From contig NZ_CP095487.1 of assembly GCF_023028345.1 (NCBI RefSeq), forward strand, positions 1,860,001-1,924,000: DNA of 64,000 bases, read 5' to 3'. A model generated the notes under the pieces. It was not told the origin of the DNA. It ran no database searches and worked only from the letters and a program-made list of their open reading frames with translations. Below, one piece after another: positions 1,261 to 64,000 of the stretch (the first letter of the stretch is position 1; each line of letters starts with the position of its first letter). A program made the position numbers and the translations under genes. The DNA comes from Halorientalis marina (GTDB lineage: Archaea > Halobacteriota > Halobacteria > Halobacteriales > Haloarculaceae).

Positions 1261-2316
1261 TCACTCGTCGCGACGGTCGCTGACGCAGTCCTCGATGGGT
1301 TCGAGGAGTTCGTCGGCGACGGTGTACGGGTCGGTCTCCCGGGCCATTACGGCCTCGACGAACGAGTCCAGCCCGCCGCGGGCCTCGATCTCCTCGGCCA
1401 GCAGGCCGGCGGCGTCCTCCCGGAGGAGGGTGCGTATCTCCGAAGCGTAGCGGTCGCGCGCGATCTCGTCGAGTTGCCCGGAGGTCTCCAGGAACTCGCG
1501 GTGGTCGTCGAGCGCCTCGACCAGGTCCTCGAGTCCCTCGCCGGTCTTGGCGACCGTCTCGACGATGGGCGGTTTCCAGCCCGCGCCCTCGCTTTCCTCG
1601 TCGGCTCGCGTCTCGACGGCGACGGTCTCGGCGTCCGACTCGACGGCGCCGTGGTGGCCCGTGGCGACCGACACCTCGTCCCGGCGCATCTCGATCATCT
1701 CCCGGAGGTCCGAGACCGTCCGGTTCGCCCCCTCCAGGTCCGCCTTGTTCACGACGAACAGGTCAGCGATCTCCAGGATGCCGGCCTTGAGCATCTGGAC
1801 GTCGTCGCCGCTTCCGGGTGGGACGAGGACGGTCACGGTGTCGGCGGTCCGGACGATATCGACCTCGTTCTGTCCGGCACCGACGGTCTCGATGATGATC
1901 TTGTCCTTCCCGAAGGCGTCGAGCGCCTTGACGGCGTCCGTCGTCGCCGTCGAGAGGCCGCCGAGCGTCCCGCGTGCGGACATCGAGCGGAAGAACACGT
2001 CCATGTCCCCGCGGTTCGAGGCCATCCGAATGCGGTCCCCGAGGACCGCCCCGCCGGTGAACGGCGAAGAGGGGTCGATGGCGATGACACCCACCGTGAG
2101 GCCCTCGTCCCGGTAGTGTTCGGCGAGTTTGTCGACGAGTGTCGACTTGCCGGCGCCGGGACTGCCGGTGATACCGATCACCTCGGCACCGCCGGTGTGG
2201 TCGTGGAGGGCCGACACGAGGTCCCGGTAGCCGGGTGATCGGTTCTCGATTTTCGTGATGACGCGGGCGAGCGCGCGGTGTTTCCCGGCGAGTAACTCCT
2301 CTATCAGGTCGCTCAT
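1261..2316 (-). CDS. meaB: Methylmalonyl-CoA mutase-associated GTPase MeaB
   Basis: MeaB is a G3E GTPase that gates delivery of adenosylcobalamin to methylmalonyl-CoA mutase and protects the holoenzyme. The 351 residues show the P-loop GITGSPGAGKSTL near residue 50, the DPSSPFTGGAVLGDRIRM signature, ETVGAGQNEVDIV and the guanine-specificity motif NKADLE, all in the usual order and family length. An acidic insertion (about residues 215-245) is typical of haloarchaeal versions. Its ATG overlaps the stop of the mutase small subunit upstream (ATGA), so the two are co-translated and act on the same complex in propionyl-CoA metabolism. Confidence 0.95.
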   Translation of the reverse strand: MSDLIEELLAGKHRALARVITKIENRSPGYRDLVSALHDHTGGAEVIGITGSPGAGKSTLVDKLAEHYRDEGLTVGVIAIDPSSPFTGGAVLGDRIRMASNRGDMDVFFRSMSARGTLGGLSTATTDAVKALDAFGKDKIIIETVGAGQNEVDIVRTADTVTVLVPPGSGDDVQMLKAGILEIADLFVVNKADLEGANRTVSDLREMIEMRRDEVSVATGHHGAVESDAETVAVETRADEESEGAGWKPPIVETVAKTGEGLEDLVEALDDHREFLETSGQLDEIARDRYASEIRTLLREDAAGLLAEEIEARGGLDSFVEAVMARETDPYTVADELLEPIEDCVSDRRDE

Positions 2317-2729
2317 CGATCGGGAGCGTTCTCGCGGACGTACTCGATGATCTCGTCCATCGACGCGCCGGGCCCGAATATCTTCCCCACACCGAGGTCG
2401 TAGAGGTCGTCACGGTCCTCCTCGGGGATGATGCCGCCGAGCAGGAGCAGCGTGTCGTCCTTTGCGTCGTACTCCTCTAGCCCGTCGAGGATCTTCGGGA
2501 CGAGCGTGTTGTGGGCACCCGAGAGGATGGAGATGCCCAGCACGTCGACGTCCTCCTGGACCGTCGCCTGTACGATCTCTTCGGGGGACTTGTGGAGGCC
2601 GGAGTAGATGACCTCGAACCCGGCATCTCGGAACGCACGCGCGATGACGTGTGCGCCCCGGTCATGACCATCGAGTCCGACCTTGGCGACCAGACACCGA
2701 ATCGTCCGTTGCTCCGTATCCGCACTCAT
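2313..2729 (-). CDS. mcmA2: Methylmalonyl-CoA mutase, cobalamin-binding subunit
   Basis: This is the small B12-binding subunit of (R)-methylmalonyl-CoA mutase, which interconverts methylmalonyl-CoA and succinyl-CoA. The 138-residue protein has the base-off cobalamin motif D-x-H-x-x-G (VGLDGHDRGAHVIA), SILSGAH in the middle and GGIIPEED near the end, covering just a Rossmann-like B12 domain. I start at ATG 2729 (MSADTEQR); the 10 residues upstream in frame are not family-like. The gene overlaps meaB by 4 bp. The catalytic large subunit is not in this window, which is normal for archaea, where the two subunits are often encoded apart. Confidence 0.93.
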   Translation of the reverse strand: MSADTEQRTIRCLVAKVGLDGHDRGAHVIARAFRDAGFEVIYSGLHKSPEEIVQATVQEDVDVLGISILSGAHNTLVPKILDGLEEYDAKDDTLLLLGGIIPEEDRDDLYDLGVGKIFGPGASMDEIIEYVRENAPDR

Positions 2730-2880
2730 AGCACAGTGTACCGGGGTGGATGGCTTCATTCTTGCCCTCTATCCCCACACTTAGGTAACAGGTTCGCCGC
2801 TCCGAGCGGACCCGTCGCGGTGCCCGCGCGAACCCGACCGGATGCGACGCACTGAAGAAAGTTCGGTCCCGACGTTCGGT

Positions 2881-3534
2881 ATGGCAGTCGCCGACGACCT
2901 CGGGCAGTGGCCCAGGGCACACCCGCGTCTCGTCACCACAGTCCTGTCGATCCTCGGCTACGCGCTCGTGATCGGCGCGTTCGGGGGCCTGCTCCCCATC
3001 CCCGAGATCGGTCGGGACACCGTCATTCTCCTGGGTGACGCCATCGCCGTGGTGAACACGCTGGCACTGAGCGCTATCGTCGCCGGCGTCTACTTCATCC
3101 GCACCGACCAGGTCCGCAAACACCGCGCCGCGATGCTGACCGCCTTCGCGCTCATCATGGTGTTTCTCGTCATGTACCTCGTGAAGGTCGGTGCCGGCTT
3201 CGAGAAAGCCATCCTCGCCGAGGGCGTGGTCTACTACGCCTATCTCGGAATGCTCGCCGTTCACATCCTGCTATCGGCGCTCGCGGTCCCGGTCGTCCTC
3301 CACGCAGTCGTCCTCGGACTGACTCACTCCCCGTCGGAACTGCGCGACACGATCCACAAGCGCGTCGGCCGCGTCGCCGTCGGTGCGTGGGGCCTCTCGC
3401 TCGCGCTCGGAGTCATCACGTACCTCCTGTTGAATCACGTCTACAGCTGGGAACCCCGGACCGAACTCTTCTTGCTCCTGGTCGGCCCCGGACTCGGCGA
3501 ACTCCGGGACAGCCTGTTCGGCGACCGGGAGTAA
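2881..3534 (+). CDS. DUF420-family membrane protein
   Basis: The product (217 residues from ATG 2881) has about six hydrophobic helices: LVTTVLSILGYALVIGAF, ALSAIVAGVYFI, AMLTAFALIMVFLVMYLVK, YYAYLGMLAVHILLSALAVP, VVLHAVVLG and the last near VAVGAWGLSLALGVITYLL. The layout, with conserved H, K and Tyr residues inside helices, fits the DUF420/YozB family, whose Bacillus member CtaM is tied to cytochrome oxidase maturation. No neighbour here confirms that role. An in-frame ATG at 2842 would add 13 residues; I prefer 2881 because the short cytoplasmic N-terminus is more typical. Confidence 0.75.
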   Translation: MAVADDLGQWPRAHPRLVTTVLSILGYALVIGAFGGLLPIPEIGRDTVILLGDAIAVVNTLALSAIVAGVYFIRTDQVRKHRAAMLTAFALIMVFLVMYLVKVGAGFEKAILAEGVVYYAYLGMLAVHILLSALAVPVVLHAVVLGLTHSPSELRDTIHKRVGRVAVGAWGLSLALGVITYLLLNHVYSWEPRTELFLLLVGPGLGELRDSLFGDRE

Positions 3535-7878: not shown

Positions 7879-8559
7879 TCACCGGCCGAACGGCCGCCAG
7901 TACAGCAGCGCGACGGTGACGACGAACACGACCGTCGAGAGGCCGTAGGTCTGTGCGTAGGCCGCGCTCGCGACCGCGGTGCCGCTCCCCACGACGCCCG
8001 TTACGAGCGTCGCCAGCACCGGCCACGTACAGGAGACACAGGACAGCAGGCCGAGCAGCCCGCCGATGGCCGACCCGGCCGCGTCGATCACCGTTGCGTA
8101 CACGAGATAGGCGAGTGAGATGTAACCGACCAGCTTGTACGGCATGAGCGTGACGCCGACGACGGTCCCGTCGTAGAGAAGCGCCGGTCCCCACCCCGGC
8201 GGGAGGTCGAGCAGGACGACCCGGGCCGTCGAGAGGGCGGGGTTCGCGGCGGGACCGATCAGCCCCCCGAAGTACGACAGGACGGCGAAGTAGCCGACGG
8301 CGACCGCGGCGGCGATGCGACGCTCGCGCGTCCCGGTCGGCGCCGGTCGCGTCCGGAGGATGGCCCAGAGCCCGACGTTGATCCAGACGAACGGAAAGAG
8401 CCAGTACCGGACCGCGAGCGGGCCGACGAGCTGTGACTCCGAGATCACGGCGTACGACGCGAGCAGGAGTATCTCGAAGTTGACGACGAGTGCGGCCCAC
8501 AGGAGCGTCTTCCGCTCCGGGCGGACCCGCGCGAGCCAGTCCGACGTGACGGTGCTCAT
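7879..8559 (-). CDS. Haloarchaeal polytopic membrane protein of the heme-synthesis operon
   Basis: This 226-residue product has about six hydrophobic helices (for example TLLWAALVVNFEILLLASYAV, YWLFPFVWINVGLWAIL, AAVAVGYFAVLSYFGGLI). It contains one notable pair of cysteines in GLLSCVSCTWPVLATL, suggestive of metal or thiol chemistry within the membrane. The start ATG at 8559 overlaps the stop of ctaB by 4 bp, so it is translationally coupled to heme O synthesis. I do not recognise a named family with confidence; a role in oxidase assembly is inferred from position only. Confidence 0.75.
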   Translation of the reverse strand: MSTVTSDWLARVRPERKTLLWAALVVNFEILLLASYAVISESQLVGPLAVRYWLFPFVWINVGLWAILRTRPAPTGTRERRIAAAVAVGYFAVLSYFGGLIGPAANPALSTARVVLLDLPPGWGPALLYDGTVVGVTLMPYKLVGYISLAYLVYATVIDAAGSAIGGLLGLLSCVSCTWPVLATLVTGVVGSGTAVASAAYAQTYGLSTVVFVVTVALLYWRPFGR

Positions 8560-10049
8560 ATGGCGAGTGCGTCGACGACGATGGCGAGCAGGAGCGCGCC
8601 GAGGTACGCGTTCGAGGCGTGGAACGCCCGGAAGGCGGCTCCCTCGGTTCGCTCGCGGTGCAGGCGGATCACCGTCCAGAGGAAGACGGCACCGAGCGCC
8701 GTCGTCGTGGCGGCATAGAGCCAGCCGAGGCTCGTCAACGCCGCGAGCGCCGTCGCCGTCAGCAGCGTCGCGGCCAGCCACAGCAGGATGTGTTTCCGCG
8801 TCGTCGCCTCCCCGCGGACCACCGGCATCATCGGGAACCCCCCCTTCTCGTAGTCGTCCTTGTACGCCAGCGCGAGGTTGTAGAAGTGCGCCGGCGTCCA
8901 GACGAACACGATCCCGGCCAGCGCGAGCCCCGGCAGGCCGATCCCGCCGGTGACGGCCGCCCAGCCGATCAGCGCCGGCAGCGCGCCCGCCGCACCGCCG
9001 ATAACCGTGTTCTGTACGGTGTTGGGTTTCAGCAGGAGCGTGTAGACGATGCTGTAGAACAGAATCGCCGTGACGCCCAGTACCGCGGCCAGCGGGTTCA
9101 ACTGGAGGAAGACCGTCACGGAGACGACCGCCAGCGCGAGGCCGAACGCGACGGCGTTCCGGACCGGAATCTCGTGGGTCGCGACGGGGCGGTCGCTCGT
9201 CCGGTCCATCTCCTTGTCCACGTCGCGCTCCAGAACGTGGTTGAACGTGCCCGACGCGCCGATGGCGAGGACGCCGCCGGAGAGCGTGAACGCGACCGTT
9301 GCGACCGTGAGCGGCGCGCCGGTCGTCGCCGCCAGCGCCATCCCGGCCGAGGCGACGAGACAGAGCAACCACATCAACCGCGGTTTCATCAACCGGAAGT
9401 ACGCGTAGGCGCGCTGACCGAGCGTGGGCGAGTCCCCGGACTCGGCGGAGGCCGCCGATGCCGTCGTGGCGTCGGCTTCGGCGGCCGTGTCGGTCTCGGC
9501 CGTCGCCTCGGCCGCGGTCCCCGGGCCGTGGGGCGTATCGGTACCGGCCGTACCGTCGGGCGCGTCGCCGGTCGAGACGGGCGCGTGCTCGCTGGCGTCC
9601 GCACCCGTCCGGGGTTCGAGGTGCCAGGCGAGCGCGAGCGTCAAGCCGCCGAAGATGCCCATCCCGGCGACGAGGTGGACCATCGGGAAGGGGGCGCTCG
9701 CACCGTTCGTCGCGACAACCGCCCCGATCCCGACCTGGACGCCGTAGAGGGCGACGGAGCCGGCCAGGGCCGCCTTGACGCGACGGGCGACGGTCTCACT
9801 GGTGAAAGCGACAGCGACGGTCCAGAGGGTGAGGACGCCGACCGCGAGTGCGACCACGCGGTGGAGCCAGGCGACGAGCAGGACGGGTTCGGCCAGGGAT
9901 GGTGCCTGCTGGCACAGCGGCCAGGAGCCACAGGCGCTCGTCACGTCCGCCATCGCGGCCGTCGCGCCGACGACCACGAGGAGGTAGATTCCCATCGCGG
10001 TACTGGCGAGCAGGGTCGCGAACCGCGGGCGTGGGATGGAGATGGACAC
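8556..10049 (-). CDS. ctaB: Fusion of CtaA-like half domain and protoheme IX farnesyltransferase (heme O synthase)
   Basis: Residues 1-145 have four hydrophobic helices with the heme-binding histidines of COX15/CtaA (WLHRVVALAVG and FPMVHLVAGMG). A low-complexity Ala/Thr/Asp linker spans roughly 148-212. Residues 215-497 are a complete UbiA-type prenyltransferase: NHVLERDVDKEMDRT supplies the Asp-rich site for farnesyl diphosphate, and DRPVATHEIP follows. CtaB farnesylates heme B to heme O; CtaA oxidises heme O to heme A in a full-length form that has two such halves. The gene leads an operon with the membrane protein at 7879-8559 and is divergent from coxB, a sensible partner. Confidence 0.9.
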   Translation of the reverse strand: MSISIPRPRFATLLASTAMGIYLLVVVGATAAMADVTSACGSWPLCQQAPSLAEPVLLVAWLHRVVALAVGVLTLWTVAVAFTSETVARRVKAALAGSVALYGVQVGIGAVVATNGASAPFPMVHLVAGMGIFGGLTLALAWHLEPRTGADASEHAPVSTGDAPDGTAGTDTPHGPGTAAEATAETDTAAEADATTASAASAESGDSPTLGQRAYAYFRLMKPRLMWLLCLVASAGMALAATTGAPLTVATVAFTLSGGVLAIGASGTFNHVLERDVDKEMDRTSDRPVATHEIPVRNAVAFGLALAVVSVTVFLQLNPLAAVLGVTAILFYSIVYTLLLKPNTVQNTVIGGAAGALPALIGWAAVTGGIGLPGLALAGIVFVWTPAHFYNLALAYKDDYEKGGFPMMPVVRGEATTRKHILLWLAATLLTATALAALTSLGWLYAATTTALGAVFLWTVIRLHRERTEGAAFRAFHASNAYLGALLLAIVVDALAI

Positions 10050-10199
10050 GGTGCTATTCCTCGTTAGATGAACCTTAGACCGGGACCACTTATGCCCCGC
10101 GCTTTGCCCGGCGACACCCGGGTCGTCGCGTCCGCACTGACCCGAATATGTGGGGCCGTACCGAATCCCCGTCGGCCGGTCTGGGCGGACAACAGCAGC

Positions 10200-10206
10200 T
10201 ATTTAT
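10200..10206 (+). promoter_or_regulatory. TATA box of coxB
   Basis: The sequence TATTTAT lies 26 bp before the coxB ATG at 10232, which is the spacing expected for a leaderless or nearly leaderless haloarchaeal transcript. It also disqualifies the longer in-frame starts at 10148 and 10205 of the same frame. Confidence 0.6.
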
Positions 10207-10231
10207 GCGGGAACTCCTAACCGCCGATACG

Positions 10232-10987
10232 ATGAAAGGGAAGCGCGCAGGGCTGACGGCCCTCCTCGGGTTCGCCTTCCTGCTCGTCTTCGTCGAACCG
10301 GTGGCGGCACAGCAGACGAGTTCGACGACGACCGAGCAGCTCATCTGGGGGCTCAACAGCAAACTGTTGTACGTGGCGGTGCCCATCACGATCCTCGTCG
10401 AGGGGATCCTGATCTACACCGTCTGGAAGTTCAGCAAGAGCGACGAGGCCAAACCGACGAAGGAGAACCGCCGGCTGGAAATCACGTGGACCGTCGCGAC
10501 CGCCGTCATTCTCCTCTTCGTCGGCGCCGCGGCCTACCAGGTGCTGGGCAGCCCGTACGTGAGTGCCAGTTCCACCCAGGAACTCGACACCGAACAGGAA
10601 CCGATGGAGATCAAGGTCATCGGCCAGCGCTACAACTGGCAGTTCCACTACCCCGAACAGGACATCAATTCGACCAACACGCTGGTGATGCCCAGTGATC
10701 GGCCAGTGGAGTTGAACGTAACCTCGAAGGACTGGCTCCACGCCGTCCACGTTCCCGGCATGGGACTCAAACAGGACGCCTTCCCGGGCCAGTGGAACCA
10801 GGTCCTCACCGAGGCACAGGAGACCGGCGAATACCAGCTCTACTGTGCGGAGTACTGTGGCTCGGGCCACTCCGCGATGCTCGGCTCCGTCGAAGTCCGG
10901 AGCGAAGAGGAGTTCCAGCAGTGGGTCGACGAACAGCAGAGTTCGGGCAGTTCGGGCAACAGTTCGACGAACAGCTCCAGCAACTGA
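10232..10987 (+). CDS. coxB: Cytochrome c oxidase subunit II (CuA)
   Basis: Subunit II accepts electrons from a blue copper protein through the binuclear CuA centre. The 251-residue protein has a signal peptide (to about residue 26, ending AAQQ), two membrane helices (about 45-65 and 85-105) and a cupredoxin domain with H170, C205, C209, H213 and M216 (CAEYCGSGHSAM). The tail is Ser/Asn/Gly-rich. No subunit I or III lies beside it, so the rest of this oxidase is encoded elsewhere; the neighbouring divergent ctaB operon provides its heme. It is distinct from the CuA-halocyanin fusion at 60046. Confidence 0.95.
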   Translation: MKGKRAGLTALLGFAFLLVFVEPVAAQQTSSTTTEQLIWGLNSKLLYVAVPITILVEGILIYTVWKFSKSDEAKPTKENRRLEITWTVATAVILLFVGAAAYQVLGSPYVSASSTQELDTEQEPMEIKVIGQRYNWQFHYPEQDINSTNTLVMPSDRPVELNVTSKDWLHAVHVPGMGLKQDAFPGQWNQVLTEAQETGEYQLYCAEYCGSGHSAMLGSVEVRSEEEFQQWVDEQQSSGSSGNSSTNSSSN

Positions 10988-56349: not shown

Positions 56350-58824
56350 TCATTCACCGGCCGGAACACCGCGCTGCTGTGCCGAATCGGGTTCCTGACT
56401 GACCGTCGAATCGGGTGTCTCGGACGGGCCCTCGGTTGAGGGCGTCTCCGGGGTCGGGGCGGCGAGCAGTGGCCGCGAGGAGTTCCCGACCACGAGCAGA
56501 CTACTGAGCGCCATCGCGACGGCAGCGACCAGCGGGTTGATGTGCCCGAGAATCGCAATCGGGACTGCGATGGCGTTGTAGCAGAACGCCCACCTGAGAT
56601 TCTGTGAGATGCGGCGGTTCGTCGCCCGGGTCAACGCGAACACGCGGGGGACGGCGCGCAGTTTCTCGCCGGTCAACACGACATCGGCGGCGTCGGCAGC
56701 CATCGCCGTCCCGCTGTCGAGCGCGATGCCGAGGTCGGCAGTCGCCAGCGCGGGCGCGTCGTTGCTCCCGTCGCCGACCATCGCGACCGTTCCCTCCGCC
56801 CGGAGGCGTTCGACGACTTCGGCTTTCGCCTCCGGTGGCACGCCGGCGAACACGTACTCGATGTCGGGATGGTCACGGAACCGGCCGACTGCGCGCTCGT
56901 CGTCGCCCGTAATGACCGCGACCGACCGCCCGGCAGCCGACAGTTCGCTCACGACCGAGGGCCACTCGGGACGGGGCTGGTCGCCGACGACGATCACGTC
57001 TCGTGCCCGCCCGTCCCAGCCGATCGCGACCGGCAGGTCGCCTTCGGAGCGGGCGTCGTCGGCGTGCGTCCGGAGCGAGTCCGGCACTGCAAGCCCCTCC
57101 GCAGTCAGTAGCTCCGGCTTGCCGACGATGACGCGCTGGTCGTCGACGGTCGCGCTCACGCCCCGTCCGGGGTGGCGCTGGAACTCCGTGACGGTCCATT
57201 CGGTCGGTGTGGTGTGGTCGGTGATGGCCGCCGCGACGGGGTGGCTGGCGAACTGCTCGACTGCGGCCGCACGCTCCATCGCCGCTGGCGACGCCGGGTC
57301 CGTCACGTGCATCTCGCCGGTGGTCAGCGTCCCGGTCTTGTCCAGTGCCACCACGTCGGTTTTCGCGGCGGCCTCGAAGACGCCGTCCCCACGCACGACG
57401 ATTCCGTGGTCGAGTCCGTCCCTGACGCCCGAGGCGACCGCCAGTGGCGTCGCCAGCCCGAGCGCACAGGGACAGGAGACCACGAGTACCGCCAACCCCG
57501 TTAGCAAACTGGTCGCGAAAGTGACACCCGAGAGGAGTTGCCAGCCCGCCGCACCCACTGCCAGCAGCAAGACGAGCGGGACGAACACGGTCGCCAGCCG
57601 ATCCGCGAGTCGCTGTGCACCCGGCCGGGCGCTCTGGATCTGCCAGAGCTGAGTCACCAGCCGGTCGAGCGTGCTGTCGACGTCCTCGCCGACCTCGACG
57701 GTGAGTGCATCGTCGGTGACGACCGCACCCCCGATCACCTCGTCGCCTGGCGTCTTCCGAACCGGGACCGACTCCCCGGTGACCAGTGACTCGTCGACCG
57801 ATGCCGTCCCCGCAGCGACGATGCCGTCGACGGGCACGCGTTCCCCGGGCCGGACCACGACCTCGTCACCGGGTTGGAGGGCCGAGACCGTGACGTCCTC
57901 CGTGTCAGTCCCGTCCGGAGTCCGACGGTGTGCCTCCGTGACACGCGCTCGTGTCAGGTCTTCCAGTGTTCCGCTGGCTGTTCGCTTGATGCGCTCCTCG
58001 TAGCGAGTGCCCAGCGTGACGACGAGGACGATCACGACGGAGATGTCGAAGTACACCTCCGAGCCACCAGTGACGACGACCGCCGTACTGTACACGTAGG
58101 CGTTGATCGCTGCCAGAGCCACGAGCAGGTCCATGTTCGGATGTCCGGACCGGAGACTGACGTACGCGCCCCGGAGGATCGGTGCGCCAGTGTACAGTAA
58201 AACGATGGAGGTGAACACCCAGAGATTCCCCAGGGAAAGCAACCCGACTGGCCCGGACTGCCAGGCGGCTCCCGTCGGCTGGAACCCGAAGTACCGCGGG
58301 TACAGGAAGAGCACGTACCACATCATCACCATCATACCACAGAACCCGCCGACGAGCAGCCGCCAGGGCGGGGACGCCGACCGCTCCGGCGTCGCGTCGT
58401 CGAGTGGTCGCGCCTCGTACCCGAGCCCGCTGACCGCCTCGGGGAGAGCCGCCGGGTCGGCCCGCTCCGGATCGTAGACCAGCCTGAGGAGGTCCGCCGC
58501 GTAGTTCGCCTCGGCTGCCGTCACACCCTCCTGTGCAGTCGCCCTGCTCTCGAGATAGGCCTCACAGGTCCCGCAGTGCATTCCCTCGACTGCCAGGAAC
58601 AGTTCCGTCCCGTCAGCGTCGGCGGGCACCGGCTCCGCCTCGCCGTCGAGTCGGTCACGGACTGCCTCCGTGGCCTCGGGCTCACACTCGTCGAGTCGCT
58701 TTGCGACCGCGAGACAGCCGCGACAGCAGAACTCGCCCTCGACGGTCTCGTCGGTGAGCGGCGGGTCCGGCGCGGGCAGCTCACAGAGCGTGCAGGTCGT
58801 CGCCGTGGCCCCGTCCGCGGTCAT
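56350..58824 (-). CDS. Cu+-transporting P1B-type ATPase, CcoI/FixI-like
   Basis: This 824-residue pump moves Cu(I) across the membrane, in the CcoI branch for oxidase copper supply. Residues 11-37 carry a cysteine-rich domain (C11, C14, EFCCRGC at 31-37) as in CcoI/FixI; the HMA metal domain has GMHCGTC at 81-87. The membrane metal motif CPC is in VVSCPCALGLATPLA, the phosphorylated Asp in ALDKTGTLTTGE, and the hinge motif in VGDGSNDAPALATAD. Start ATG 58824 lies after the TATA box and operator; ATG 58869 would sit inside the operator. Its regulator gene lies upstream on the same strand. Confidence 0.92.
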   Translation of the reverse strand: MTADGATATTCTLCELPAPDPPLTDETVEGEFCCRGCLAVAKRLDECEPEATEAVRDRLDGEAEPVPADADGTELFLAVEGMHCGTCEAYLESRATAQEGVTAAEANYAADLLRLVYDPERADPAALPEAVSGLGYEARPLDDATPERSASPPWRLLVGGFCGMMVMMWYVLFLYPRYFGFQPTGAAWQSGPVGLLSLGNLWVFTSIVLLYTGAPILRGAYVSLRSGHPNMDLLVALAAINAYVYSTAVVVTGGSEVYFDISVVIVLVVTLGTRYEERIKRTASGTLEDLTRARVTEAHRRTPDGTDTEDVTVSALQPGDEVVVRPGERVPVDGIVAAGTASVDESLVTGESVPVRKTPGDEVIGGAVVTDDALTVEVGEDVDSTLDRLVTQLWQIQSARPGAQRLADRLATVFVPLVLLLAVGAAGWQLLSGVTFATSLLTGLAVLVVSCPCALGLATPLAVASGVRDGLDHGIVVRGDGVFEAAAKTDVVALDKTGTLTTGEMHVTDPASPAAMERAAAVEQFASHPVAAAITDHTTPTEWTVTEFQRHPGRGVSATVDDQRVIVGKPELLTAEGLAVPDSLRTHADDARSEGDLPVAIGWDGRARDVIVVGDQPRPEWPSVVSELSAAGRSVAVITGDDERAVGRFRDHPDIEYVFAGVPPEAKAEVVERLRAEGTVAMVGDGSNDAPALATADLGIALDSGTAMAADAADVVLTGEKLRAVPRVFALTRATNRRISQNLRWAFCYNAIAVPIAILGHINPLVAAVAMALSSLLVVGNSSRPLLAAPTPETPSTEGPSETPDSTVSQEPDSAQQRGVPAGE

Positions 58825-59043: not shown

Positions 59044-59739
59044 TCACTCCGAGACGACGCTCGACAGCAGTTTGCCCTGGGCGGCCGCGAGGTGTTCGCT
59101 GAACGTGGTGGTGGCGATATCGAGTTCCGCGGCCACTTCGTTGGCGTTGGCTTCCTTGGGGTGATCGAAGTAGCCCATCTCGTACGCTGTCGAGAGGACC
59201 TCGATCTGGCGGTCGGTGAGTCGCCCGCGGTCGACGACGACGTGGTCCTCGTCGTCGAGTCCGGCCGAGTGGGAGAGGTGCCGGAGCCTGACAGCCGAGA
59301 ACACCTCACGCGCTTCGGTCACGATCGTCCGGACCGTCTCGACGTTCTCGGCGTAGAAGGTGACGAACAGGTCGCCGTTCTCGGCGTGAATGTCGCTGAC
59401 CGGGCAGTTGTGCTGCTCGACGAACCGGCAGAGACAGGGGCCATCCGGGTCGTAGCTGTATCGGTACCGCGTCCGCGATCCGGTCCGGAAGACCGGCGTC
59501 ATGTCCTCCGCCGGCGGATCGGCTTCAGCGGGGAGTGTGAACTCCGCAACCTCGCAGTCTTCGGCGGGACTGCTGCGAGCCACCGAGTTGACCAGTGCGT
59601 TACACTCCCCGGAGAGGTCCGCGATCGGGCAGCACTCGGGTCCTCTCACGACCATCTCGACCTGAATGCCACCGCCGGTCTCTTCCCCGTCGTCGGCTTC
59701 CGAGACTGTCACGCCGTCACTGGACCCGTGAGTGCTCAT
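59044..59739 (-). CDS. Cys-rich HTH-10 regulator (NarO/DmsR-like)
   Basis: A 231-residue regulator with a C-terminal HTH-10 domain (LTDRQIEVLSTAYEMGYFD, EVAAELDIATTTFSEHL). The N-terminal domain has seven cysteines at 36, 37, 46, 62, 102, 104 and 112, in the pattern of haloarchaeal NarO and DmsR, which control denitrification and anaerobic respiration, probably through a metal or iron-sulfur cofactor. The start is ATG 59739. It lies between the copper ATPase gene and the divergent respiratory operon, whose promoters share an operator, so it probably controls both. Confidence 0.85.
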   Translation of the reverse strand: MSTHGSSDGVTVSEADDGEETGGGIQVEMVVRGPECCPIADLSGECNALVNSVARSSPAEDCEVAEFTLPAEADPPAEDMTPVFRTGSRTRYRYSYDPDGPCLCRFVEQHNCPVSDIHAENGDLFVTFYAENVETVRTIVTEAREVFSAVRLRHLSHSAGLDDEDHVVVDRGRLTDRQIEVLSTAYEMGYFDHPKEANANEVAAELDIATTTFSEHLAAAQGKLLSSVVSE

Positions 59740-59833
59740 ACGTCTCTCTCCGCAATCGCTGCCCATATGCGGCCGTCGTTGTTCTCAGCCGCTGGGAATC
59801 CGGATGGTCCCGGCAGGCCTGGGCCAGGGAGGG

Positions 59834-59897: not shown

Positions 59898-60044
59898 ATG
59901 TCAGGACAGGATCGGGCAGACGTACCGTGGCCCCAGCAGTTGCTGGAGAGTCCCTGGCTGCTGGCCGGGGCGGCGTTGCTGTTTTTCACGCTCTCGTACA
60001 TCATCTGGGGTCTGGTCGATCTCATGGCAATCGCAGGAGGGTAA
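59898..60044 (+). CDS. 48-residue membrane subunit of the heme-copper reductase (CbaD-like)
   Basis: The ORF ATG 59898 to TAA 60042-60044 encodes a single-helix protein: PWPQQLLESPWLLAGAALLF, followed by FTLSYIIWGLVDLMAIAGG. A short one-helix subunit precedes subunit II in ba3-type operons (subunit IIa/CbaD of Thermus). It is separated from the next gene by only one base. ATG 59868 is an alternative start in the same frame. Confidence 0.8.
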   Translation: MSGQDRADVPWPQQLLESPWLLAGAALLFFTLSYIIWGLVDLMAIAGG

Positions 60045-60045
60045 C

Positions 60046-60981
60046 ATGAAGTCACCACTCGAAGGCCCAGACGGAAACTGGTGGGACGAGAAGGTGAACA
60101 GGCGCGAAACCATCTGGCTCGGCATCTCGGGCGCGTGGGCACTGGGCCTGTTCGGCTGGATGTCCGGCTGGACGCAGTTCGGCAACCAGAACCCCATCGG
60201 CGAGTCGCTGGACGTTTCCACCGAACGGTTCCAGGAGAAAGTTACCGATTACAAGAGCCGGGCCGGTGAGGCCGAAGCGGGTCTGGTGCCGCCCGGAACG
60301 GATATCTACGTCGGCGCGGCCCGGTACGCCTTCGACGGCCTGCCGGTCGTGCTGGAGAAGGGGACCGAGTACACGTTCCACCTGGGTACCTACGACGTCC
60401 AGCACGGGTTCTCGGTGCGACTCGAAGACACCCTCTCGAAGCAGATGAGCCTGCAGATGCTTCCGGGGTACGAGTGGCTCGTGCCGATGTCCTTCGACGA
60501 GATCGGGACCTACCACGTCGTCTGTAACGAGTTCTGTGGCGAGGGGCACCGGACGATGCACTCCACCTTCGAGGTGCGTGACTCGCTCCCCGACGTGGAG
60601 ATGGGCACCGGCACCGACGGGTCGGAAGACGGCCAGTACGACGGCTACCTCAGCAACGCGGACAACTTCGACGGCGAACCAGTCGACGAGACCGGCAGCG
60701 ATTCGGTCACGATTCGAGTCGGCGCGGAAGGCAACGGCGGCGGCTTCGCGTTCGACCCCCCGGCCGTCCGGGTCGACACTGGAACGACCGTCACCTGGGA
60801 GTGGACCGGCGAGGGGGGCCAGCACAACGTCGTCGCGGAGTCGGGTGCTGACTTCGAGTCCGAACTGACCGGCGAGGCTGGCTTCACCTTCGAGCGGACG
60901 TTCGAGGAGAGCGGCGCTGTCACGTACTTCTGCCGGCCACACAAAGCCCTCGGAATGAAAGGCGTCGTGGAGGTGCTGTAG
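60046..60981 (+). CDS. Heme-copper reductase subunit II: CuA domain fused to a halocyanin domain
   Basis: The 311-residue protein has one N-terminal membrane helix (TIWLGISGAWALGLFGWMSG). Residues 85-180 form a CuA cupredoxin with H120, C160, C164, H168 and M171 (CNEFCGEGHRTM). After an acidic linker, residues 217-311 form a halocyanin-type blue copper domain with H260, C296, H299 and M304 (GGQHNVVAES, YFCRPHKALGMKG). The usual mobile electron donor is therefore tethered to its acceptor. It is co-transcribed with the small subunit and subunit I, whose start follows without a gap. Confidence 0.92.
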   Translation: MKSPLEGPDGNWWDEKVNRRETIWLGISGAWALGLFGWMSGWTQFGNQNPIGESLDVSTERFQEKVTDYKSRAGEAEAGLVPPGTDIYVGAARYAFDGLPVVLEKGTEYTFHLGTYDVQHGFSVRLEDTLSKQMSLQMLPGYEWLVPMSFDEIGTYHVVCNEFCGEGHRTMHSTFEVRDSLPDVEMGTGTDGSEDGQYDGYLSNADNFDGEPVDETGSDSVTIRVGAEGNGGGFAFDPPAVRVDTGTTVTWEWTGEGGQHNVVAESGADFESELTGEAGFTFERTFEESGAVTYFCRPHKALGMKGVVEVL

Positions 60982-62748
60982 ATGTTCGGAACGTACGAAT
61001 ACGACGACGACGGCTTCCGCACGTGCTCGGTGACGGGACTGGACATCCACAGGTCCGCCGAGGACATGGTGAAACTGTTCGGCGTGACGGCGATCGTCTC
61101 GCTGGCATTCGGTGGCATCTTCGCGATCTTCGTCGTCTTGACCCGCTGGGAGGTCGTCGGCCTGCTCTCCCCGGGCGACTTCTACACGTATCTCTCGATG
61201 CACGCGTGGCTCCTGCTGGTCTTCTGGATGGTGTTCATGGAGATCGCCGTCCTGTACGTGGGTGGCCCGTTCGTCCTCGGGCGAAAACTCCCGTGGAAGC
61301 GCCTCTCACAGGCGGCGTACGCGCTGATGGCCGGTGGCGCGGTGACGATCCTCACCGCGATCTGGCTCACCGAGCAACCGAATCAGGCGCCACTGCTGAC
61401 CTCCTACGTCCCACTGCCGTCCTCGGAGTGGTTCTATCTCGGTGCGATCGTCTTCCTGCTGGGGGCACTCGTCGCGGCGCTGCCCTTCCTCGCGACGATC
61501 TGGAAGGAGAAACGGCAGAACCCCCACGGGACGATGCCGCTCGTCGCCTTCGGCGCGTTCATCACCTCGATCGTCGCCGCGGAGGCCATCGTCGGTGGAC
61601 TCGTCACCTACATCCCGACGTATCTCTGGCGGATCGGGGTCTTCCCGGCGCTCGATGCGGCGTGGTACCGGCAGATGTACTGGATCATGGGTCACGGGAC
61701 CCAGCAGATCAACCTCCTGGCGATGATCACGATCTGGTACTTCATGACCCACGTGGTCGGGGGTGCCGAGGTCGCCAGCGAGAAAGTCTCACGCACGGCC
61801 TTCGTGCTCTACCTGTTTTTCATCAACATGGGCGCGGCCCACCACCTGATGGTGGACCCGGGCCTCTCGCCGGCCTGGAAGATCTGGAACACCTCCTACG
61901 CCGCGTACGGCGCGGTCCTGGCGAGCATGATTCACGCGTTCGCCATCCCTGCGGGACTCGAAGTCGGACGCCGCAAGCGCGGCAAGGGTGGTGGCGTCTT
62001 CGGCTGGCTCAAGACCGCACCGTGGAGCGACCCCGGTTTCTCGTCTATCGTGATGAGCGTCATCCTCTTTGGCTTCCTGGGAGGCATCACCGGCGTCATG
62101 ATGGGCCAGATGCAGCTCAACATGACCTGGCACAACACGCTGGCCGTGCCGGGTCACTTCCACGCCACCGTGGTCCTCGGGACGACGCTGGCGTTCATGG
62201 GGCTGAGCTACTACGTCCTCAGACTGGTCTTTGGCCGCGAGTGGGTCCTGAAACCGCTGGCGGTCATCCAGCCGTATCTCTACGCCGGTGCGATGAGCAT
62301 CACGGTCCTCATGATGATGTACATCGGCATCCTGTTCGGTGTCCCGCGTCGTCACCCCTCGGTGATGGACATCCCGGGTACCGACTTCAGCTTCGCCGCC
62401 GCCAAGCCACTGTTTTTCATCTTCGGCATCGCCGCGCTGGTGGCGATCCTCGGCGGGGCACTGTTCGTCGTCGTCGCCGTCGGAACGCTGCTCGGTGGTG
62501 ACAAGTACGAGGGTGCGCTCCCGGTCGAGCGGCCCACCGCCGTCGCCGACGGTGGTCCCGCGAGCGACGCGAACGGGACGTCGTCGGACGGGCAGTCCGA
62601 CGGAAGTGACGACGACGAGGAAGGCATGGCCCACCACATGCTGAGCATGCGCGGGACGTTCATCCTCGCGCTCGTGTTCTTCGCCGTGTTCGTCGTGATG
62701 ATGGCACTGAACTGGTTCCTGCTCAGCGGCCTCTGGAAGATCGGGTGA
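60982..62748 (+). CDS. Heme-copper reductase subunit I (B-family-like, missing the active-site tyrosine)
   Basis: A 588-residue membrane protein with the conserved heme and copper ligands: H74 in helix II, H238 for CuB in helix VI, H287-H288 in helix VII, and H392/H394 in helix X (VPGHFHATV). The helix X pattern WHNTLAVPGHFH is B-family (ba3-like). But helix VI reads MGHGTQQINLL, where oxidases have GHPxVYFWLL, so the cross-linked Tyr (H+4) is Gln242. A charged linker (about 520-555) leads to an additional C-terminal helix. It could reduce O2 by an unusual site or, more likely, NO. Confidence 0.88.
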   Translation: MFGTYEYDDDGFRTCSVTGLDIHRSAEDMVKLFGVTAIVSLAFGGIFAIFVVLTRWEVVGLLSPGDFYTYLSMHAWLLLVFWMVFMEIAVLYVGGPFVLGRKLPWKRLSQAAYALMAGGAVTILTAIWLTEQPNQAPLLTSYVPLPSSEWFYLGAIVFLLGALVAALPFLATIWKEKRQNPHGTMPLVAFGAFITSIVAAEAIVGGLVTYIPTYLWRIGVFPALDAAWYRQMYWIMGHGTQQINLLAMITIWYFMTHVVGGAEVASEKVSRTAFVLYLFFINMGAAHHLMVDPGLSPAWKIWNTSYAAYGAVLASMIHAFAIPAGLEVGRRKRGKGGGVFGWLKTAPWSDPGFSSIVMSVILFGFLGGITGVMMGQMQLNMTWHNTLAVPGHFHATVVLGTTLAFMGLSYYVLRLVFGREWVLKPLAVIQPYLYAGAMSITVLMMMYIGILFGVPRRHPSVMDIPGTDFSFAAAKPLFFIFGIAALVAILGGALFVVVAVGTLLGGDKYEGALPVERPTAVADGGPASDANGTSSDGQSDGSDDDEEGMAHHMLSMRGTFILALVFFAVFVVMMALNWFLLSGLWKIG

Positions 62749-62753
62749 CCACC

Positions 62754-63791
62754 ATGCAGGACACCCACACCCCGTCGCTGACTCGCTCGCTCCTCTCGCT
62801 GTCCAAGCCCCGGATCGTCGCGCTGCTCACGCTGACGGGCGTAACCGCTGTCTTCGCAGCCGGTGGGTTACCGCTCGTCGAACTCGCAGCGTTCGTCCTC
62901 GCCGGGATCGGCATGGCCGGTGGCTCGGCCGCGCTGAACTGCTACTACGACCGGGATATCGACCCCGAGATGGAACGCACTGCCGACCGCCCGCTCGCGA
63001 CGGGGCACGTCTCGCCGTGGGTCGCACTCGCGTTCGGAACGGGGCTGCTCGCTGCCGCGACGGCCGTCGGACTGCTCGTGCTCCCTGCCGTCTCGGTCGG
63101 GTACATGTGGCTCGGCGTCGCGAGTTACGTCGGCCTCTACACCGTCTTGCTGAAGCGACGCCACTGGCTGGGGGTCGTTCTCGGCGGGTCCGCGGGGTCG
63201 TTCCCCGTACTGGCCGGCTGGACCGCGGTCCACCCCGTCGCGGTCCCCGCAGCGCCGGCACTCTTGATGGCTCTCCTCGTGTTCGTCTGGACGCCCGCTC
63301 ACGCGTGGGCGCTCGCTGTCGTCTACCGTGAGGATTTCGCTGCCGTCGCCATCCCGACGTTGCCGGTGGTCACCGACCCCGCTCGGACCCGGCGTGCCAT
63401 CTGGCTGTCGGCACTGCTGACAGTCCTGACGGCCGCCGCACTGGTCCCGTTCGCGGGCCCGGTCTACGCTGGTGCGCTCGCTGCCGGCTCGGTGCTGTTC
63501 CTGCTGGCCTACCGCGGGTTCCTCACGGCAGGGACGGACTCGACGGCTGTCCGAGCCTTCTTCACCTCGAACGTCTATCTCGCGCTGTTGTTCGTCGGCT
63601 GGGCCGTCGACGGCTCGCTCGCGGCCGGACCAGCGGGTGCTCTCGGCAGCGCCGGTCTCTCGGCGATGCTGATCGGCTGGCTCTGGTCGCGGCGGCCCCG
63701 TCTCGGCGGGGTCCCGGCTGCGCCGGGACCAGACCTGCCTGCACTCGCGACTCGCGCGTACCACCGCGTCGTCACCGCCGAGGCGCCGTGA
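62754..63791 (+). CDS. ctaB: Protoheme IX farnesyltransferase, second copy
   Basis: A 345-residue UbiA-family heme O synthase: KPRIVALLTLTGVTAVFAAGG, the Asp-rich LNCYYDRDIDPEMERTADRP, ATGHVSPWVAL and LVFVWTPAHAWALAVVYREDF. It lacks the CtaA-like half that is fused to the other copy at 8556-10049. It starts 5 bp after subunit I; GTG 62745 overlapping that stop is an alternative start. It likely makes heme O for the co-transcribed reductase. Confidence 0.92.
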   Translation: MQDTHTPSLTRSLLSLSKPRIVALLTLTGVTAVFAAGGLPLVELAAFVLAGIGMAGGSAALNCYYDRDIDPEMERTADRPLATGHVSPWVALAFGTGLLAAATAVGLLVLPAVSVGYMWLGVASYVGLYTVLLKRRHWLGVVLGGSAGSFPVLAGWTAVHPVAVPAAPALLMALLVFVWTPAHAWALAVVYREDFAAVAIPTLPVVTDPARTRRAIWLSALLTVLTAAALVPFAGPVYAGALAAGSVLFLLAYRGFLTAGTDSTAVRAFFTSNVYLALLFVGWAVDGSLAAGPAGALGSAGLSAMLIGWLWSRRPRLGGVPAAPGPDLPALATRAYHRVVTAEAP

Positions 63792-63871: not shown

Positions 63872-64000
63872 ATGAGTCAGGAATCAGTCGAGTCCCCGTT
63901 GGAATGGACGCGCCGGGCCGCCGGTAACACCTGGAAGGCCGTCAAGAGCGTTTACTGGGCAAATTCACCGAGCTGGCGGTTTCTCAAGAGTGGCGCGCTG
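63872..64000 (+). CDS. Unknown protein (partial, runs off the right edge)
   Basis: The frame is open from ATG 63872 to the end of the window (43 codons; MSQESVESPLEWTRRAAGNT at the start, then SVYWANSPSWRFLKSGAL). It is rich in Trp and basic residues, as in the cytoplasmic lead of a membrane protein. It follows the second ctaB by 80 bp on the same strand and may belong to the same respiratory cluster. No family assigned. Confidence 0.5.
   Translation, partial: MSQESVESPLEWTRRAAGNTWKAVKSVYWANSPSWRFLKSGAL

Follow-up and report, generated by a model that had tools for sequence, protein, structure and literature searches.

A probable eNOR-type nitric oxide reductase operon in Halorientalis marina, with glutamine at the active-site tyrosine position and a halocyanin domain fused to the CuA subunit

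Gene content of the locus

The window analysed here is a stretch of 64,000 nucleotides of the Halorientalis marina contig NZ_CP095487.1, and its end carries an operon (59898-64585) whose genes are co-directional (+ strand) and separated by small gaps. They encode, in this order, a 48-aa protein, heme-copper subunits II and I, CtaB and a 237-aa protein. These genes, the features within them and the relevant neighbours are as follows (window coordinates).

Across the window start, and 521-952 (- for 521-952): NosL genes, about 60 kb from the operon
56350-58824, -: copper-type P1B ATPase, a possible copper supply (TIGR01511, above cut-off)
59044-59766, -: DmsR/NarO-type HTH_10 regulator, divergent to the operon (PF24277, DmsR_N, 9.6e-39; PF04967, 1.7e-20)
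59898-60044, +: single-helix protein of 48 aa immediately before subunit II, a candidate subunit IIa (read from the DNA)
60046-60981, +: subunit II, 311 aa, with one transmembrane anchor, a CuA domain (by its ligands) and a C-terminal halocyanin domain (TIGR03102)
60637-60975, +: the fused type 1 copper (halocyanin) domain of subunit II (TIGR03102 5.3e-49, above cut-off; ligands complete)
60982-62748, +: subunit I of the probable eNOR (heme b, heme b3/CuB), 588 aa, an open frame with an ATG start (PF00115, COX1, 1.6e-56)
61693-61707, +: codons of H238-G-T-Q-Q242, the CuB ligand His and the Gln replacing the cross-linked Tyr (Q-Q against V-Y in the alignment)
62754-63791, +: CtaB/heme o synthase, UbiA family (TIGR01473, 214 bits; cut-off 210)
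63872-64585, +: membrane protein of 237 aa, predicted to contain an Ig-like domain; the gene continues beyond the window end, and the window holds 63872-64000

A residue check of the subunit I frame confirmed what a first-pass annotation of this DNA had reported, namely that all six heme and CuB histidines (H74, H238, H287, H288, H392 and H394) are present. Helix VI reads W-I-M-G-H238-G-T-Q-Q242, which places Gln242 at H+4, and in the alignment with PDB sequences this residue falls on the active-site Tyr237 of Thermus thermophilus ba3. The protein scored 56 bits with the CtaD equivalog model, the cut-off of which is 671. The same genome encodes eight full-length heme-copper subunits I plus one fragment; the remaining seven full-length proteins carry HPEVY or HPVVY, and the window protein is the exception among them. 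The fragment (A family, 222 aa, contig 1612132-1612428) keeps helix VI whole and has lost the rest, and is apparently a decayed copy.

Subunit II has a complete CuA site (H120, C160, C164, H168 and M171, all invariant), and its gene lies directly upstream of that of subunit I, as in eNOR. The fusion of CuA and halocyanin domains is limited to a single haloarchaeal subclade, in which it has apparently been lost once (Haloarchaeobius); some ba3 oxidases of haloarchaea carry halocyanin on subunit IIa and not on the CuA subunit (PMC3128077). A small hydrophobic ORF similar to the 48-aa protein occupies the same place in most eNOR loci, including those of Thermus, Defluviimonas and Rhodothermota-type genomes, and by its size and position this one-helix protein resembles subunit IIa of B-type oxidases (PMC3128077).

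Downstream of subunit I, CtaB is present in 27 of 43 eNOR loci. The 237-aa family is found in 38 of the 43, adjoining subunit I or one gene off, and also in Rhodothermota-type eNOR loci; it was not detected in the eNOR group of 41-44% identity, several loci of which have only 1.5 kb of flank. Searches of the 237-aa protein against Pfam and NCBIfam gave no family above cut-off. Its predicted model (pLDDT 89) has three long hydrophobic helices plus a beta-sandwich, and a fold search returned weak matches, partly to beta-sandwich (fibronectin/Ig-like) domains, and no functional lead.

On the other side, the NarO-like regulator that had been noted next door is real (59044-59766, -), its assignment to the NarO/DmsR type coming from Pfam alone; it carries a C-x-C-x7-C pattern at residues 111-121. 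In haloarchaea, denitrification and DMSO respiration are under the control of regulators of the DmsR/NarO group (PMC11218638). Members of the copper-type P1B ATPase family are neighbours of eNOR in 25 of 43 loci. Other genes were seen at particular loci: SCO1/SenC-type, thioredoxin-like (Redoxin) and, by eye, DsbD/CcdA-like proteins are encoded just upstream of eNOR in some Natrinema loci (L018-L024), where they likely represent a CuA assembly set, and a multi-helix protein of 452 aa, whose COX1 match is weak and below cut-off, lies downstream of eNOR in five loci (e.g. L031:10214-11569).

Conservation, phylogeny and family assignment

A contig scan yielded 43 relatives of subunit I with 59-73% identity, plus two bacterial records. 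The haloarchaeal ones belong to Halorussus, Halolamina, Halorarius, Halobacterium, Natrinema, Halorubrum, Halopenitus, Natronomonas, Halovenus and others, and one relative (L050) was excluded on account of a frame broken in the active-site region. In this first round Q241-Q242 was invariant in 44 haloarchaeal relatives. Bacterial rows were then added, from Thermus and Defluviimonas plasmids and from twelve genomes of the phylum that contains Salinivenus, and the pair was invariant in 89/89 sequences of the eNOR clade, including the bacterial ones at 41-44% identity; the same positions read V-Y in 29/29 B-family and 9/9 A-family aligned sequences. The Gln at the cross-linked Tyr position (HGTQQ), previously proposed from this one gene, was thus borne out by the 89 relatives and by the Tyr of the 38 A and B sequences, and because it is invariant across relatives it is not a sequencing quirk.

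The difference extends beyond this pair. The eNOR and oxidase clades were split fully or almost fully at E87, N244, Y277, N282, N303, Y306, Y309 and H318 (the N282 position is Gln in Defluviimonas), and these alignments indicate that the eNOR active site is rebuilt, beyond a single-residue mutation. The His ligands are kept in the 89 relatives except for H394, which is Lys in the Thermus plasmid rows: two different T. thermophilus plasmids (L105 and L163) have GHFK for GHFH, with Lys at the equivalent of this low-spin heme ligand.

In a maximum-likelihood tree of 66 sequences (IQ-TREE, LG+C20+F+G4), the 33 Q-Q proteins, the window protein included, shared one side of a branch with support 100/98, and the B oxidases (98/96) and the A oxidases (100/100) formed separate groups. 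Clustering of subunit I within the O2 reductases, an outcome that would have spoken against the first-pass reading, was therefore looked for in the tree and not seen. The window protein grouped with relatives of its own genus and order. Bacterial Q-Q sequences fell into two sets, one at 41-44% identity and one near the haloarchaea (Salinivenus, other Rhodothermota-type genomes and an uncultured bacterium); the latter points to gene transfer between bacteria and haloarchaea, in either direction.

The sources for the eNOR family are Hemp and Gennis (2008), PMC8756737 and Murali et al. (2024), the last of these through its citation in PMC11388526 and PMC12569097. Archaea (Natronomonas) gave the first description of the family, which was later found throughout Halobacteria and in several bacterial phyla; Gln at the Tyr site is diagnostic of its subunit I, the gene of a cupredoxin subunit II lies immediately upstream, and one proton channel is predicted (PMC8756737). 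The enzyme is listed among the biochemically characterised NO reductases (PMC11388526). The window protein is a further member of this named family, and the implication that it was a candidate new archaeal NO reductase was overstated, eNOR being already on record in Halobacteria (PMC8756737). It has in common with published eNOR the Gln at the Tyr position, the six His ligands and the CuA subunit II gene directly upstream, and differs in the halocyanin fused to subunit II and in the 48-aa one-helix protein, CtaB and 237-aa membrane protein that flank the pair. The assignment is supported by the shared Gln diagnostic and by the clade, rather than by a direct alignment to the characterised enzyme, which we take to be that of Rhodothermus marinus.

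Two other groups of enzymes bear comparison. The B-family ba3 oxidases (T. thermophilus ba3, Aquifex aeolicus and haloarchaeal CbaAB) share the fold, about 25-31% identity, a CuA subunit II, the K-channel Tyr (Y253, ba3 Tyr248) and a small-helix subunit IIa upstream, but they have HPxVY with its Tyr and form the separate clade noted above. The predicted model of the window subunit I is of moderate confidence (pLDDT 73) and speaks for a ba3-like fold only (TM 0.68-0.71 to ba3 oxidases). Haloarchaeal qNOR (NorZ) has the same predicted reaction and likewise partners NirK, but it consists of one fused chain that includes a cytochrome c-like NorB domain (PF22085), which the window genome does not contain, and the active-site Glu that is a feature of qNOR and cNOR is absent from the window protein, which has Gln instead.

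Association with NirK in haloarchaeal genomes

We surveyed 292 haloarchaeal genomes of the class, counting NirK at E <= 1e-50. eNOR was present in 53, with identities of 61-100% followed by a clear gap down to 33%. NirK was found in 50 of these 53 genomes versus 111 of the 239 without eNOR (odds ratio 19, p 1e-11), and stratification by genus gave an odds ratio of 39 (p 3e-8); since the link holds within genera, it does not just reflect shared ancestry at the genus level. Moreover, at least 16 eNOR genes have nirK at a distance of 2.2-10.2 kb, for a rough chance expectation below 1. qNOR also occurs in 34/53 eNOR genomes, which means that eNOR is not always the sole NO sink. Among the genomes without qNOR, NirK was found in 18 of 19 that carry eNOR versus 20 of 111 that do not, so that eNOR is carried by 18 of the 38 NirK-positive, qNOR-negative genomes, the window genome among them.

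NirK of the window genome scored above its family cut-off and is encoded about 860 kb from the eNOR operon, so that linkage to nirK characterises the family but does not extend to this genome; the contamination estimate of the assembly is 7%, and the 3.7 Mb contig that holds the window also holds NirK. A profile search for the NorB/qNOR domain (PF22085) found none in this genome, and eNOR is thus the only recognised NO reductase there. Two NosZ models likewise found no match, and N2O is accordingly the predicted end product. The NosL genes of the window had been adduced in favour of an NO reductase, an argument that fails because they are some 60 kb away and NosZ was not detected by either model. 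Seven NosL-like matches were seen in the genome, some around contig positions 250-256 kb and 53 kb; with no NosZ found, these proteins are possibly copper chaperones for other cupro-enzymes.

A 2021 review gives qNOR (NorZ) as the only class of NO reductase in haloarchaea, and surveys of haloarchaeal denitrification count it as such and take NirK-only genomes for NO emitters (PMC8400030). The eNOR distribution reported here, as read from sequence, contradicts the only-qNOR statement of PMC8400030. If eNOR works as inferred, the 18 of 38 sample genomes with NirK and without qNOR would be NO-to-N2O reducers. An enzyme of this kind is easily mistaken for a cytochrome c oxidase, and it may fill the absent NO step in many haloarchaeal genomes that seem to lack one; the amounts of NO and N2O that hypersaline sites are predicted to release would then change.

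Proposed mechanism and alternative explanations

We believe that the operon very probably encodes a haloarchaeal eNOR, a B-family-related heme-copper NO reductase, the main role of which would be to remove or respire the NO made by NirK. The idea that the operon might encode a CuA-type NO reductase and not an oxidase was already in the first-pass annotation, and the phylogeny, the Gln diagnostic and the strong genomic association with NirK lend it support. All ligands of heme b, of heme b3/CuB, of CuA and of type 1 copper are present in the sequence, and the helix VI Tyr is lost. We infer NO as the substrate, the electron route, proton uptake and pumping, and a regulatory role of the neighbouring DmsR/NarO-type protein. 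The respiratory chain would deliver electrons to the fused halocyanin domain of subunit II, from which they would move to the CuA of that subunit and on to low-spin heme b and the high-spin heme b3/CuB site of subunit I, where the predicted reaction is 2 NO + 2 e- + 2 H+ -> N2O + H2O. Oxidases use the Tyr to cleave the O-O bond, and NO turnover can do without it. The cross-linked Tyr may thus have been replaced by Gln242 because NO reduction needs no fourth electron or proton donor for O-O splitting. Y253, S315 and H318 of subunit I and Glu21 of subunit II are invariant; by the PDB alignment and the K-channel residues of ba3, the first three are the equivalents of Tyr248, Ser309 and Thr312, respectively. 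Protons would arrive through this K-channel-like polar path (Y253, H318, S315 and Glu21 of subunit II), and its retention suggests that NO reduction may be electrogenic. eNOR would remove and respire NirK-made NO alone in genomes without qNOR and beside qNOR in the others. If true, this would provide a genetically tractable archaeal setting for energy conservation from NO by a Gln-site heme-copper enzyme.

The alternative that survives best is that the enzyme detoxifies NO under microoxic conditions, with little energetic role and no proton pumping, which is compatible in its chemistry with the explanation above and which we regard as possible but rather unlikely. The co-occurrence with qNOR in 34 of 53 genomes fits this alternative, and so do the neighbours of bacterial eNOR: the gene on the Thermus plasmid adjoins Rrf2 and DUF542 genes and that of Defluviimonas adjoins a hemerythrin gene, and such a gene context is often tied to NO stress, which speaks for an NO reductase in general as well. 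However, the K-channel-like residues and the Glu of subunit II are invariant, the fused halocyanin couples eNOR to a respiratory electron carrier, and 18 genomes have NirK and eNOR without qNOR, all of which counts against this alternative.

Far less probable is an O2 reductase whose catalytic Tyr now sits on a different helix, in the manner of cbb3. The candidate residue would be Y277 in helix VII, which is invariant in 89/89 sequences of the eNOR clade and is Phe or Leu in B oxidases, and E87, N244, N282, Y306, Y309 and H318 are clade-specific too, as they would be in a rebuilt site. We take the cbb3 Tyr to lie six residues before the first His of the HH pair. This offset corresponds to residue 281, which is Ile or Leu, whereas Y277 stands ten residues before that His, about one helical turn beyond. 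As to the earlier caveat that a Tyr might be supplied from another helix, the sequence has none at the cbb3 position, and the different, eNOR-specific Tyr of helix VII (Y277) may be a candidate. Furthermore, the eNOR clade tracks NirK and not O2 respiration, other complete oxidases are present in the window genome, and published eNOR reduces NO (PMC11388526).

Finally, membership of another Tyr-less family (sNOR, gNOR, nNOR or bNOR), which are likewise B-family-related NO reductases (PMC11388526), is highly improbable, given that the published comparison of active-site residues, covering sNOR, bNOR, gNOR and eNOR, has Asn in sNOR and in CuANOR (bNOR), Asp in gNOR and Gln, the residue of the window protein, in eNOR only (PMC8756737 Table A4). 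The bNOR/CuANOR of Bacillus is also a B-family-related CuA-type NO reductase, and differs in its Asn (PMC8756737 Table A4) and in being bacterial. A Geobacillus plasmid match considered as bNOR was ruled out, as it has HPLVY and groups with the B oxidases.

Returning to eNOR, the gene contexts raise the idea that the haloarchaeal and Rhodothermota enzyme is larger than two subunits. Besides these it would include a one-helix subunit of the IIa type and, in the form of the 237-aa family of 38/43 loci, a dedicated third membrane component that acts as a subunit or in assembly, with the halocyanin donor built into the CuA subunit in one haloarchaeal subclade, and it would be the NO sink of about half of the haloarchaea with NirK and without qNOR; our confidence in this composite picture is evenly divided for and against. 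In the literature searched, the scope of which lay outside the family's defining paper, we did not find the quantitative NirK link, haloarchaea with NirK and eNOR but no qNOR, the CuA-halocyanin fusion or the conserved 237-aa membrane protein, and its eNOR part makes no mention of the 48-aa protein or CtaB; some of the first four may already have been published.

Two further observations concern heme-copper genes other than eNOR. In the window, a CoxB gene (10148-10987, +) stands beside a divergent ORF (8556-10049, -) that by eye resembles a CtaA-CtaB fusion, with no subunit I found adjacent. On an Azospirillum brasilense plasmid (L114, frame near 1605-3497) there is a very divergent heme-copper subunit I that lacks the usual H-x3-Y and has YH where the CuB pair HH is expected, and which may represent another Tyr-less family.
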